From positions 1 to 60,920 of the forward strand of contig MNEU01000086.1 of assembly GCA_001917855.1 (NCBI GenBank): a DNA stretch of 60,920 bases, given 5' to 3'. The number at the start of each line of letters is the position of its first letter. The first letter of the stretch is position 1. The position numbers and the translations under genes were made by a program. The notes under the pieces were generated by a model, which did not search any database, was not told the origin of the DNA, and saw only the letters and a list, made by a program, of their open reading frames with translations. Source of the stretch: Armatimonadetes bacterium 13_1_40CM_64_14 (lineage in GTDB: Bacteria > Sysuimicrobiota > Sysuimicrobiia > Sysuimicrobiales > Kaftiobacteriaceae). Below are positions 6,202-56,843 of this stretch, in pieces.

Positions 6202-6209
6202 CTCTGTCG

Positions 6210-6755
6210 ATGAGGACGGCGGGACGACCGAAGACGCGTCGCCGAGCGGGGGTTCGCCCGACACAGGCTCGCGTCCGGGATGCGTTGCTCAACAGCTTGG
6301 GACCGCGGATGGCCGGAGCACGGGTGCTGGACCTCTACGCCGGCACGGGCGCGCTAGGGATGGGAGCGCTGCACCACGGAGCCGCGTACACTCTGTTTGT
6401 GGAACGCCATGCCTCGCTCGCGGCCGACCTGCGCCGCCGTCTGACCGCCGCAGGCGTGAGCGACCGCGCAGAGGTGTGGGCCAAAGATGCGCTGGCTGCG
6501 GTCCGGGAACTGGGCGCGGGGCAAGGGAGGTTTGACATCATCCTGCTGGATCCCCCGTACGGCCAGGAGTTGATCGCAGCGACCCTGGACGCGATCAGAC
6601 GCGCGAGCATCCTCGCCGCGGACGGAGTGGTGGCCGCCGAGGGCCACTGGCGGGACCACCCCGGTGAGATCACAGGACTCATCTGCCGCCGCGAAGCCCG
6701 GTACGGAGAAACCAGGTTGTGGTACTTCCAACACTCAGGAGGTGAGGGCCCGTGA
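6210..6755 (+). CDS. rsmD: 16S rRNA (guanine(966)-N(2))-methyltransferase RsmD
   Basis: The enzyme methylates G966 of 16S rRNA in the assembled small subunit using SAM. The 181-residue protein has RPTQARVRDALLNSL at the N terminus, the SAM-binding LDLYAGTGALG, and the catalytic DPPY in ILLDPPYGQE. It begins 8 bp after recG and its stop overlaps the GTG start of coaD, a rsmD-coaD pairing found in many bacteria. Confidence 0.95.
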   Translation: MRTAGRPKTRRRAGVRPTQARVRDALLNSLGPRMAGARVLDLYAGTGALGMGALHHGAAYTLFVERHASLAADLRRRLTAAGVSDRAEVWAKDALAAVRELGAGQGRFDIILLDPPYGQELIAATLDAIRRASILAADGVVAAEGHWRDHPGEITGLICRREARYGETRLWYFQHSGGEGP

Positions 6756-9556: not shown

Positions 9557-10575
9557 CGGAGTCCGCGGGCACCGGGATGGGCCTCCGCGGTTCGACGATC
9601 ACCGGCATCGGCCGCTATTTGCCTCGGCGGATCATGACCAACCACGAAATTGAGAAGATGGTGGACACGTCGGATGAGTGGATTGTCACGAGGACCGGGA
9701 TTAGAGAGCGGCGGATTGCGGCCCCCGAGGAGGCCAGCTCGGATCTTGCGTACGCGGCATCGCAAGAGGCGCTCGCCGGTGCGGGGATCACCCCCGCGCA
9801 GCTTGACCTCATCATCGTCGGGACCGCAACTCCGGACATGTTGTTCCCGGCCACCGCCTGTATCCTCCAGGACCGGTTGGGGGCCAAGCAGGCCGGGGCC
9901 TTCGACCTTTCCGCCGCCTGCAGCAGTTGGGTGTACGCGGTGGCCGTCGCGCACGGGTACATCGCCGCAGGGCTCGCGAAAACGGTGCTCGTGGCGGGCG
10001 CGGAAACGCTGTCGAAGTTCACGAACTGGAAAGACCGCGACACCTGCGTACTGTTCGGGGACTCCGCCGGGGCCGTAGTCATGCAAGCCTGCGAGCCGGG
10101 AAGCGGATTCTTGTCATTCTATCTCGGGGCGGATGGAGCGGGGGGGTCGCTGATCGCCATTCCCGCCGGCGGCTCGCGGATCCCTGCCAGCTTTGAGTCG
10201 ATCGAGCGCAATCAGCACTTCATGCAGATGAACGGTCGCGAGGTCTACAAGTTTGCGGTCCGCTGCATCCCCAAAGCCATCGAGGAAGCCGTACAGCGCG
10301 CGCACCTGACCATCGATGACGTCGACGTGTTCATCCCCCATCAGGCCAACATCCGCATCATCGACGCCGCCGCCGGGCGGTTAGGCCAGCCCCGCGAGAA
10401 GTTCTTCATCAACGTCGAACGGTATGGCAACACGTCGTCCGCCTCCGTGCCGGTCGCGCTGTACGAGGCTGTGGAAGGCGGCCGCGTGAAACCCGGCGAT
10501 GTGGTCGTGCTGGTGGCCTTCGGCGGCGGCTTGACGTGGGGCTCCTGCGCCCTGCGCTGGACGAAACCGTCCTGA
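9553..10575 (+). CDS. fabH: Beta-ketoacyl-ACP synthase III
   Basis: FabH condenses acetyl-CoA (or branched primers) with malonyl-ACP to begin fatty acid synthesis. The 340-residue protein carries the catalytic triad: Cys near 123 (DLSAACSSWVY), His near 262 (IPHQANIRI) and Asn near 292 (YGNTSSAS). DTSDEWIVTRTGIRERR near residue 38 is also diagnostic. GTG 9553 overlaps the plsX stop; ATG 9577 is an alternative. The frame is open farther upstream only inside plsX. Confidence 0.96.
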   Translation: MTESAGTGMGLRGSTITGIGRYLPRRIMTNHEIEKMVDTSDEWIVTRTGIRERRIAAPEEASSDLAYAASQEALAGAGITPAQLDLIIVGTATPDMLFPATACILQDRLGAKQAGAFDLSAACSSWVYAVAVAHGYIAAGLAKTVLVAGAETLSKFTNWKDRDTCVLFGDSAGAVVMQACEPGSGFLSFYLGADGAGGSLIAIPAGGSRIPASFESIERNQHFMQMNGREVYKFAVRCIPKAIEEAVQRAHLTIDDVDVFIPHQANIRIIDAAAGRLGQPREKFFINVERYGNTSSASVPVALYEAVEGGRVKPGDVVVLVAFGGGLTWGSCALRWTKPS

Positions 10576-52399: not shown

Positions 52400-53011
52400 A
52401 TGCAAATCTTGGCACGAGTGAGTACATTTGCGATTGTCGGTCTCTTCTTGCTCAATGTCGCGTTGGGAGTCATTGAAGAGGTTGTTACGCATCGTGTCCA
52501 CCGGGGGGAGGCCCAGGGCGCGGGACTGCCCCGATCGGCAGGGCGAGGGTCACGCCCAGTGACGGACCTCGGGGAGGCGCTTACCGCAGATGTGCACTTC
52601 TTTGCGAACCGCGTCGTGATCGATGTGGAGGCCAAGAGGGTTCTCCGCACGCAGAGGGACTTGCGATTTGATCTGCTAGTTACTCCCCGTGCGGTTGACG
52701 GGTTCGTCATTCTCCCGATGGATCGGTTAGCGGTGGATGGGGCGAAGACTGCAATTGTCACAGAGGACGGATCTTGGCTCCACGTGAAGGCTGTATACGG
52801 CGTGGGATTGGTCTTCGATAGCGAAGTCCGTCGCAGTTCTCCAGTCTACGCGATTGGTGTGCCACGACAGGTGGAGTTGGTGTTCCCCGCCCCCTCATCG
52901 AGCAGGCGTGCAACACTACTTGTGAGGTGGGCTCCGGGAAAGGCAGTCGTGTACGCACAGGGCTGGCGAGTGGACAGGATTTTGGAAGTTTCCCTCCCCC
53001 CTCAGCCATAA
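52400..53011 (+). CDS. Membrane-anchored protein of unknown function next to the Clp-like gene
   Basis: The 203-residue protein has one N-terminal hydrophobic segment (VSTFAIVGLFLLNVALGVI) and then a beta-rich part (LTADVHFFANRVVIDVEAKR, LRFDLLVTPRAVDGFVILPM, RRATLLVRWAPGKAVVY) that would lie outside the cytoplasmic membrane. I recognise no family. It starts 9 bp after the AAA+ gene, behind GAGGTGAT, so the two are probably co-translated partners. Confidence 0.65.
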   Translation: MQILARVSTFAIVGLFLLNVALGVIEEVVTHRVHRGEAQGAGLPRSAGRGSRPVTDLGEALTADVHFFANRVVIDVEAKRVLRTQRDLRFDLLVTPRAVDGFVILPMDRLAVDGAKTAIVTEDGSWLHVKAVYGVGLVFDSEVRRSSPVYAIGVPRQVELVFPAPSSSRRATLLVRWAPGKAVVYAQGWRVDRILEVSLPPQP

Positions 53012-53284
53012 ACGCGGGGACTGAGGACATCATGTTCTGTGAATCTAGTCATCCCCTCCGGCAAAATTGGGAGCGAGATTCCCGTCGCAAGCGCTATGAC
53101 ACGACGTGATGGCGGGAGGGAGTTAAATACTGTTATATTGTTATTATACTTGCACATATGCACTCCCTGTGGTAGATTGAGGACGGTGGTCACGGGTTCC
53201 GGCCACCGGCCATCGACTCGGAGCAAGCTGCGGGTTGCCCCGGGTCCACGGGCCGCGGCTTGCTCCTCCGCGGAGGAGCAGCGC
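53012..53284 (+). promoter_or_regulatory. Structured leader with A/T-rich promoter and mutually exclusive hairpins
   Basis: AGGGAGT (53117-53123) and ACTCCCT (53162-53168) enclose an A/T-rich stretch with a possible -10, TATACT at 53145-53150. Downstream, CGGTGGTC pairs with GGCCACCG (53184-53191/53201-53208); 53220-53233 pairs with 53253-53266 over 14 bp with one G-U; and 53261-53280 is a perfect palindrome whose right half is the ribosome site GGAGGAG. The last two share 53261-53266 and exclude each other. Confidence 0.65.
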
Positions 53285-53932
53285 ATGAGCACCTTGACAA
53301 AGGAAAGCAGCAGTCCCGTAAAGGTCGCGCAAGTCTTTGCCGACTTCAGGCTCGGTCTGCCTCGTATGGGTACCGTCTTCGTGAGTGCGCGCCGACACAG
53401 GGTCCAGGTGTCCTGGACCGCCAAGGGGCTAAGGGGAATGTGTAAAAAGTGCACACGCCAAGATGGGTGTGCTGCGGTCTTCGATGCCATTCGCGCGGTG
53501 GAGATCTTGGCTGAGGCGTGGGAGCGTCCTCCGATCAGTCGCATCCAGGCCCGCGTTGAGGCAGATATTCAGTCGGACCCGTTGACCGAACCGGAGCAGC
53601 CCAGAATCCGTCCGTACGATGGACTAGCCAGGGATATTTGCCAGGCGGACCTAGTGCCAATCCACATACCGCCTTGGGCGTACGACGAGCAGGGCACCCG
53701 ACGTCCGGTCGTCGACGCCGAGATCGCTGAAGACGTTTGGTACGAGCTGCAGCACAGGCTAAATCGCCTACTCGGCTATCGGATCCATGCGGAGACGAGC
53801 TACCGTCCTCCTGTCCACAAGTACTACCAGGCAAGCTGGGAGCTGGATCGGGGGATGACGCACGCTGCATTCAAGCTTGATCTCCTGACAGACCTCGATG
53901 AGGATGGGCAGCTCGATGCGTTTGCGCCGTGA
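53285..53932 (+). CDS. Protein of unknown function upstream of the primase
   Basis: ATG 53285 follows GGAGGAG and gives 215 residues. The first 75 hold a small cysteine group (GMCKKCTRQDGCAAVFDAI) near residue 57, possibly metal-binding; the rest is charged, with many Pro and Tyr (IPPWAYDEQGTRRPVVD; YRPPVHKYYQASWELD). I know no family. The frame is open to 53039, but that part is A/T-rich and lacks coding character. Its stop overlaps the primase start by 4 bp, so it may be a replication partner. Confidence 0.68.
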   Translation: MSTLTKESSSPVKVAQVFADFRLGLPRMGTVFVSARRHRVQVSWTAKGLRGMCKKCTRQDGCAAVFDAIRAVEILAEAWERPPISRIQARVEADIQSDPLTEPEQPRIRPYDGLARDICQADLVPIHIPPWAYDEQGTRRPVVDAEIAEDVWYELQHRLNRLLGYRIHAETSYRPPVHKYYQASWELDRGMTHAAFKLDLLTDLDEDGQLDAFAP

Positions 53933-55413
53933 ACGGAGACTGCGGGCGATCCACGTCTACGGCGGCCCCTCATGGCGTGCCGGAACCCGGCCGCCGTCCG
54001 ATGCCCCGGGAGCCCGACCCGCCGGAGCCTTCGGCGGCGAGGCAGTGGGATTACCCACACGAAGCACTCTGGGAACCCAAGGTTTTGATGCCGACAGCAG
54101 TTGAATCAGTTCTGGGCGAAATTCGCGAACGTCTGCCGCTCACCAAGTACCTCGTGAGCAAGGGCTTCAAGCTGCGGCAGACGGGACGGAATCGCATGGT
54201 CGCGCTCTGTCCATTCCATGCCGACAAGCGGCGGCCAAACATGGTCATTTACACGGATGAACACCGTTTTCACTGCTACTGCTGCGGGGCTAGGGGTGAC
54301 GTCGTCGATATGGCGCGCTGTCTGGACGGCTACCTCAATTTCACAACAGCGCTGCGGGCGCTAGCAGCTAGCGTTGGGCTGTCCTTGCCCCATGGTCGTC
54401 CACAGATTAGTGAGGATAGGGGTGGGATCCTCACGCTGGCTGCGAAGTTGTACGCAGAGCATTTGGGTTCTGACGTGCTTGCATACCTCGGACGCCGGGG
54501 TTTTCCCGAGGCATTCGTGCGAAAGTGGCGCATCGGCTACGCCCCCCAGAAATCACCCCAGCTCCTGCGAGACTTCCTCAGGCAGCACACCGTTGCACCG
54601 GAGGCAGCACTGGCTTCTGGCGTACTGATCGAGGCAGGCGCCCGGGACGGGCGCCTGCTGCGCGACTTCTTCGGGAACGGCGGCGGCGGGTATATCGTCT
54701 TCCCCAACCCGGCACGCGACGGAGGTATCATCGACCTGCAAGGCCGCGCTTTTCCCAACGGTAGCAACAAGCCGAAGTACCTTAACTTGCCCAAGGGCCG
54801 ACGTTACCTCTTCAACGAGAGCATCGTGCCGCGGTCGTCCGTCATTCTCACTGAGGGAATCCCCGACGCTTTGAGTTGTCTCCTGGTCGACCAACCTGCC
54901 GTTGCAGTCTATGGAACGAGCGGTTTCTCAGACCGGTCCGTGAATCAGTTCGTTCTGTGCCGCCGCATTTACGTCGCTTTCGACCTGGACGCTCACCGTC
55001 ATAGCGTCGAGATTGCCATGCAGTTTGGATTGCGCGGCCGCGTGGTCATGTTACCGGAGTCGCTCGGCCGCAACGGCGACCTGAACGACTTTCTCATGCA
55101 GCGTGGTGCCGCGTCGTTCAGTAACGACCTGACGCAGCTGCTTCAAACTGCCGACACCGGTTACGGAGCGGCTATCAACGAGCTGCCTACGGATCTCCAG
55201 CCCTACGACCTATTCGAGAGCGCCACGTCGCTGTTGGCTGCATTGGGAGCGGTAGATCCGATAAGCCGAGACGTGTATCTTCAGAGGTTACACGTCAAAT
55301 ACGGCATCGCGATGGACACTCTCCGCGACGCGGCAAGGGAGGCGCTGTTCATGACGCCCAGCACGACATTTTCCGGGACGTCGCTCGGGGTGGCCGATCC
55401 TACGGGCCATTAG
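53929..55413 (+). CDS. DnaG-like primase (element copy)
   Basis: The primase lays RNA primers for DNA synthesis, here probably for the strand made after transfer. The 494-residue protein has a CHC2 zinc finger (CPFH near 94, HCYCC near 115), the catalytic-domain start (YLGRRGFPEAFVRKWRIGYA), and Toprim acidic motifs (VILTEGIPDALS near 308; VAFDLDAH near 351). The C-terminal 90 residues are short, without the usual DnaB-binding region. About 50 extra residues precede the finger; the internal ATG at 54001 or 54088 could be the true start. Confidence 0.9.
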   Translation: MNGDCGRSTSTAAPHGVPEPGRRPMPREPDPPEPSAARQWDYPHEALWEPKVLMPTAVESVLGEIRERLPLTKYLVSKGFKLRQTGRNRMVALCPFHADKRRPNMVIYTDEHRFHCYCCGARGDVVDMARCLDGYLNFTTALRALAASVGLSLPHGRPQISEDRGGILTLAAKLYAEHLGSDVLAYLGRRGFPEAFVRKWRIGYAPQKSPQLLRDFLRQHTVAPEAALASGVLIEAGARDGRLLRDFFGNGGGGYIVFPNPARDGGIIDLQGRAFPNGSNKPKYLNLPKGRRYLFNESIVPRSSVILTEGIPDALSCLLVDQPAVAVYGTSGFSDRSVNQFVLCRRIYVAFDLDAHRHSVEIAMQFGLRGRVVMLPESLGRNGDLNDFLMQRGAASFSNDLTQLLQTADTGYGAAINELPTDLQPYDLFESATSLLAALGAVDPISRDVYLQRLHVKYGIAMDTLRDAAREALFMTPSTTFSGTSLGVADPTGH

Positions 55414-56261: not shown

Positions 56262-56433
56262 AAGCGGCGGCTCTGAAGGGACCAAGCGTTATTCCTGTGC
56301 TGCCGGGGGATGAGGAGGCTGCGAGGACCCCGTAAGAGCGGCTCTTCGGTGGTCTTGCGGTCCGGTAGCAGACGTTAGCAGATTTGGCTCAGAATCCCAC
56401 TCTCCGATCTCCTATCCGAAGAAAATTCAAACA

Positions 56434-56461
56434 GCTGGACGTGAGAAACCCTGCGTCCAGC
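56434..56461 (-). terminator. Probable terminator of selC
   Basis: CGTCCAGC (56454-56461) and GCTGGACG (56434-56441) form a perfect 8-bp stem. Read on the minus strand, it is followed by TGTTTGAATTTTC, a broken T tract, about 20 bp after the tRNA 3' end. Confidence 0.65.
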
Positions 56462-56478
56462 CTGCCTCTAGTGAGTTT

Positions 56479-56572
56479 TGGCGGAGGGCCGTGCGAATCG
56501 AACGCACCGGAGACCGACTGGTCTCCCGCCGGTTTTGAAGACCGGAAGGGGCACCAGCCCCCACTGCCCTCC
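56479..56572 (-). tRNA. selC: tRNA-Sec (anticodon TCA)
   Basis: The 94-base gene folds as a selenocysteine tRNA: acceptor GGAGGGC with GCCCTCC, a 6-bp D stem (GGGGGC/GCCCCT) with a 4-base loop, anticodon stem CCGGT/ACCGG around loop CTTCAAA, a long variable arm (GGAGACC/GGTCTCC), T arm GTGCG-TTCGATT-CGCAC, discriminator G and encoded CCA. The long variable arm and UCA anticodon distinguish it from Ser and stop suppressors. Its 3' end faces the accessory block, a usual orientation for an integration target, but no repeat copy was found. Confidence 0.95.
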
Positions 56573-56843
56573 ATCCTACGGAATTTGCAGCGTTTCTTCA
56601 GTTTCCTACCTCGCCGCATGTCTCCGTTTCTAACCATTTACTACCCTGCGGACGGATTTCCGAAGAACCGGGCCGCTAGGGTCTTGGCCGACTGCCCGTG
56701 AAGACCGGCCGCGAGGCGCCCATAGACCTGCAAGGTGAACCCCCGCGCTGGCATGCCCCCGCAACTAGAGAGAGATGGCACGCGGGCTACACGGAAGAGG
56801 ACCTTGCGGCATTTGTGGACCAGGTGGCCTCGTGGCGCTGCGT
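56573..56843. other. Gap between selC and the ABC operon end
   Basis: No supported gene is seen. Two short frames (56641-56847 minus, 56698-56901 plus) lack ribosome sites and overlap each other. The selC promoter should lie here, at about 56580-56620 on the minus strand, but its boxes are not clear. Confidence 0.5.

Follow-up and report, generated by a model that had tools for sequence, protein, structure and literature searches.

The stretch in front of ATG 53285 raises the question whether it acts as an RNA switch that controls translation of the gene behind it. All positions refer to the window, i.e. the whole stretch of 60,920 nucleotides that was analysed. In the original prediction two mutually exclusive hairpins, one of them hiding the ribosome site, were read as a translational on/off leader of an operon with a primase gene or, alternatively, as a DNA operator. 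The leader is probably a real, constrained, RNA-level control element with a credible on/off architecture. With moderate confidence, 53181-53284 is taken here as a transcribed and selectively maintained 5' leader, which would control translation of the gene for a 215-aa protein via a chain of competing helices.

Anatomy of the leader

Both predicted helices, the palindrome, the upstream hairpin and the ribosome site were all present in the sequence (Table 1), and H2 and H3 share six bases. The palindrome is perfect over its full length, but as an RNA hairpin it gives only 8 bp closed by a CGCG loop, not 10 bp. An additional helix, P2a, had been overlooked; it excludes the 14-bp helix and is compatible with the palindrome hairpin.

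Table 1. Features of the leader region and the genes behind it (second copy: the related leader on contig C31 of the same genome)
Feature	Position	Strand	Remarks
Candidate promoter 1	53123-53150	+	TTAAAT-16-TATACT (TATACT 53145-53150); start expected near 53157; from sequence comparison
Candidate promoter 2	53150-53178	+	TTGCAC-17-TAGATT; start expected near 53184, at the edge of hairpin 1; weak consensus match
Hairpin 1 (P1)	53184-53208	+	8 bp, 53184-53191 with 53201-53208; loop ACGGGTTCC
P1 lower extension	53181-53184/53208-53211	+	Competes with P2
P2	53208-53254	+	GGCC 53208-53211 with GGCC 53251-53254; encloses P2a in the predicted site-hidden fold
P2a	53215-53246	+	GACTCGG 53215-53221 with CCGGGTC 53240-53246; rival of hairpin 2
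Hairpin 2 (H2)	53220-53266	+	14 bp, one G-U; 53220-53233 GGAGCAAGCTGCGG with 53253-53266 CCGCGGCTTGCTCC; proposed anti-sequestering helix
Hairpin 3 (H3)	53261-53280	+	Perfect 20-base palindrome TGCTCCTCCGCGGAGGAGCA covering the ribosome site; 3' edge 4 bases short of ATG 53285
Shine-Dalgarno GGAGGAG	53272-53278	+	6 bases 5' of ATG 53285; identical in second copy
215-aa protein, gene behind leader	53285-53932	+	Cys-rich motif near residues 53-62; C31 homologue 57% identical
DnaG-type primase	53929-55413	+	Frame begins at GTG 53929, overlapping the 215-aa gene at its stop

Within the 60.9 kb of the window, no perfect palindrome other than 53261-53280 exceeds 16 bases, and stems of at least 14 (G-U allowed, loop of 3-30) are found at three places, H2 among them. 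Taken alone, the 14-bp helix is unexceptional, and single stems of such size are only moderately unusual in the window. The folding energy of 53184-53287 lies in the lowest 0.15% of the 104-base windows, with a z-score of -3.8 (lowest 0.6%); folded from 53181, the same leader falls to a z-score of -2.3. The interval 53150-53300, which had been proposed for folding, gave a z-score of -3.7. The significance of the leader comes from its conservation in the second copy and from the switching test, and not from the size of its stems.

A second copy in the same genome

A search of the genome with the leader DNA revealed one further copy, on contig C31 at about 6206-6315, directly 5' of the gene for a 209-aa product that is the homologue of the 215-aa protein. 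C31 (1-10727) belongs to a further conjugative element of the same family, which has diverged to 55-67% protein identity. Both elements have the gene order coupling protein, PF13814 relaxase-like protein, AAA ATPase, 203-aa gene, leader and 215-aa gene in common, PF13814 being counted as a MobC relaxase family (PMC5357655). In the C31 element several toxin-antitoxin modules are situated around the leader gene, including toxin-antitoxin-like genes between the 203-aa gene and the leader, and the 209-aa gene is followed by an unrelated 126-aa frame. The leader appears to travel with the 215-aa gene and not with the primase, since the primase homologue of C31 starts only at 10445, adjoining the contig end, about 3.5 kb further downstream and behind toxin-antitoxin genes. 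The control of the primase by the leader, as originally claimed, thus relies on a linkage that is not conserved in the C31 element.

Some observations on the genes themselves can be added. The 215-aa protein matched no known family, and its AlphaFold model was unusable (mean pLDDT 37). By eye, its N-terminus (53285-53470; beta strands, CxxC...C or CxC...C, helix) bears a likeness to a SWIM-type zinc motif, without Pfam support. The GTG 53929 of the primase is probably too early and the ATG of MPTAVES, near 54088, is the likely start (region 53929-54090), because in the C31 homologue a stop immediately precedes the methionine that matches MPTAVES. A tRNA-Sec gene (selC) is located at 56479-56572 on the minus strand beside the end of the conjugative element, which may use it as attachment site; elsewhere in the window, no direct repeat of 14 bases from 56301-56600 was detected.

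A structure-aware alignment of the two copies over 53181-53284, i.e. of two sequences from one genome, contains ten substitutions, three single-base deletions and one 2-base insertion, and the identity amounts to 90% over ungapped sites (91/101). In the five flanking genes that the elements share, by contrast, third codon positions agree in only 40-57%, which argues for selection on the leader. No 105-base coding window exceeds 86%, and the leader, although noncoding, would be as strongly constrained as the best of the coding sequence. Gene conversion between the elements over a short tract is another way in which identity could rise, without selection. Hairpin 1, loop included, is identical in all 28 bases of 53184-53211.

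None of the 13 changes breaks pairing in the site-hidden fold (P1, outer P2a and H3), a result that random placements of the changes equalled in 1.3% of cases. Six pairs of P2a are unchanged in the second copy and one G-C pair has become G-U. H2 persists there as 12 bp with one bulge; this single break was equalled by 39% of randomisations, so that retention of H2 alone is not significant, since its arms also belong to P2a and H3. As to the covariation among homologues asked for in the original prediction, a MAFFT alignment of both copies shows one-sided changes compatible with the helices and no compensatory double change between these two sequences.

These results bear directly on the explanation that the structure arose by chance and that the similarity was caused by recent recombination between the two elements. 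The window is rich in G+C and does contain a few stems of such size, and both copies originate from one genome. The two leaders have nevertheless accumulated 13 changes while keeping the site-hidden fold intact, their similarity stops sharply at the leader and the early codons, and the switch-like folding of prefixes is rare in shuffled sequences, so that chance or recombination is considered very improbable.

The second copy also allowed a comparison of RNA and DNA functions. Two changes in the left arm of the palindrome, C53266T and C53269T, keep G-U pairing in the mRNA and break the dyad symmetry of the DNA, contrary to what a DNA operator would need. Together with the G-U pair in outer P2a these C to T changes favour, in small numbers, a function of the plus-strand RNA over the operator that had been offered as an alternative. 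A wider DNA explanation would take the palindrome and hairpin 1 as double-stranded binding sites, i.e. an operator, a replication origin or a transfer origin. A conjugative element that carries a PF13814 (Replic_Relax, MobC-type relaxase) gene, coupling proteins and a primase would be a suitable setting for such sites, and the 28 identical bases of hairpin 1 are consistent with them. This explanation is still regarded as improbable, given that the two positions at which symmetry is lost are G-U compatible in the mRNA strand only, that conservation centres on the ribosome site and start codon, and that the relaxase gene is 2.3 kb distant.

Upstream of the leader the copies are alike only in a short promoter-like block: 53144-53154 (TTATACTTGCA) is identical at 11/11 positions and has an equal distance to hairpin 1. 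The counterpart of candidate promoter 2 in the second copy is TTGCAA-17-TAGGGT, with equal spacing. Both promoter-like sites are situated upstream of 53230 and would, on this weak evidence, put the transcription start upstream of that position as well. The open frame upstream of ATG 53285, translation of which would speak against a leader, has a net 1-base shift in the second copy; it is not kept there and therefore seems to be no conserved N-terminal extension of the protein. A leader peptide was also considered and rejected: the frame from GTG 53187 enters the gene in the window and meets a TGA after ten codons in the second copy, and is not conserved. Neither 52900-53500 nor the second copy contained an intrinsic terminator or attenuator, i.e. 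a G+C-rich hairpin with a T run behind it.

Competing folds and the proposed control of translation

For RNA beginning at the edge of hairpin 1, the same minimum free energy (MFE) fold was calculated in both copies, consisting of P1, P2 around P2a, and H3 burying the ribosome site, with P(H3) of at least 0.98 for an RNA start at 53184 (6210 in the second copy). The energy penalty for forcing H2 is about 2-3 kcal/mol in the window and 4-5 kcal/mol in the second copy. In growing 5' fragments of both copies the best fold passes from P2a to H2 and then to P2a together with H3. Among helices that are the optimum of some prefix and gone from the final MFE fold, the longest measures 14 bp in the window and 12 bp in the second copy, and such refolding was matched by 0/400 and 3/400 dinucleotide shuffles, respectively. 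The calculation thus places the Shine-Dalgarno sequence inside a helix in one conformer and provides in H2, which is 2-5 kcal/mol away and forms the MFE fold of a prefix, an anti-sequestor of comparable stability. Mutually exclusive helices, one of them with the ribosome site, are in this way upheld by the energy calculation and by conservation in both copies.

The outcome depends on where the RNA begins. Calculated 5' ends at or after 53183 lead to the site-hidden fold and starts at 53170-53176 to H2, and with starts at 53150-53162 the ribosome site of the window copy also pairs with non-conserved upstream bases. The default state of the leader is predicted to flip with the position of the 5' end. 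The original reading as an on/off leader is supported by a structured, conserved leader with exclusive helices, but this sensitivity counts against it, and the comparison behind it is limited to two sequences from one genome. For an RNA thermometer the prediction was inconsistent between copies: from 37 C to 65 C the exposure of the site rose from 0.15 to 0.33 in the window and only to 0.18 in the second copy.

In the proposed mechanism, fold A (short P1, P2/P2a and H3) would bury the GGAGGAG ribosome site, and fold B (extended P1 and H2) would block H3 and leave the site freer. H2 would be favoured during RNA synthesis, while the polymerase is between about 53262 and 53281, and the finished leader can then settle into the site-hidden fold; because of this refolding, translation could be confined to young transcripts that start from a promoter just upstream. 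Alternatively, translation may be set by a factor that binds or stabilises the invariant hairpin 1. As trigger, an element-encoded protein may be more likely than a metabolite, the simplest case being feedback by the 215-aa product.

A leader without switching would be a static translational operator, with P1, P2/P2a and H3 as its one functional fold, either bound by a repressor or melted by the ribosome, and with H2 as a by-product of the G+C-rich arms or a folding intermediate. Such an operator agrees with the comparative evidence, in which P1, outer P2a and H3, unlike H2, reach significance, and with hairpin 1, invariant with its loop. It is nonetheless considered unlikely, as both copies contain a helix, of 14 bp or 12 bp, that overlaps H3 by six bases, forms the best fold of the nascent RNA and is seldom matched by shuffles.

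Relatives, known systems and significance

In agreement with the original prediction, which had matched the leader to no riboswitch class, an Rfam search near the leader in the window and in the second copy gave no family at the gathering or a relaxed threshold (best scores of 12-15 bits, E >2). Homologues of the leader or the element were searched in plasmids and phages by tblastn and blastn, and by profile in 43 genomes of the same phylum and about 730 others, 386 also with a covariance model. IMG/VR was scanned for the 215-aa, relaxase-like and coupling proteins, and GTDB genome contigs for the 215-aa and coupling proteins, both scans being based on short peptide patterns, for which empty results are soft. 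In all these collections only the two copies were found, both in the genome under study. The coupling protein showed a weak, 27% identical stretch in two Bdellovibrio plasmids. Weak matches in genomes G005, G022 and G041 and in a blackfly microvirus were dismissed as short and due to chance. The same-phylum genomes compared represent one order only, which agrees with the single order reported for Sysuimicrobiota (CSP1-3) (PMC11604079).

Sequestor and anti-sequestor helices are used by translational riboswitches and by protein-controlled leaders. The leader described here resembles these in its exclusive helices, one of them with the Shine-Dalgarno sequence, and in ending a few bases before the start codon; unlike the known ones it has no Rfam match and no recognisable aptamer. 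In the aapA3 toxin mRNA of Helicobacter pylori, metastable co-transcriptional hairpins govern access to the Shine-Dalgarno sequence (PMC6733600). There, as is predicted here, structures that are transient during transcription set this access. In aapA3, however, which is a type I toxin mRNA with an antisense RNA, transient hairpins keep the site hidden (PMC6733600), whereas in the present leader the transient helix would free it, and neither an antisense RNA nor a small toxin was seen.

A more far-reaching interpretation is put forward only tentatively, as it is rather doubtful. The leader could represent a new class of regulatory RNA of conjugative elements, with the invariant 5' hairpin as sensor of a factor encoded by the element; a relay of three competing helices with transcription-timed refolding would then let a replication-associated protein be translated only from young transcripts or upon induction of the element. 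Independently of this interpretation, if the control of translation proposed above is real, the leader would add an undescribed member to the few translational control RNAs described from conjugative elements, and the literature searched contained no regulation of this type for its lineage. The two copies would also provide a two-sequence seed for building an RNA family as more such elements get sequenced.
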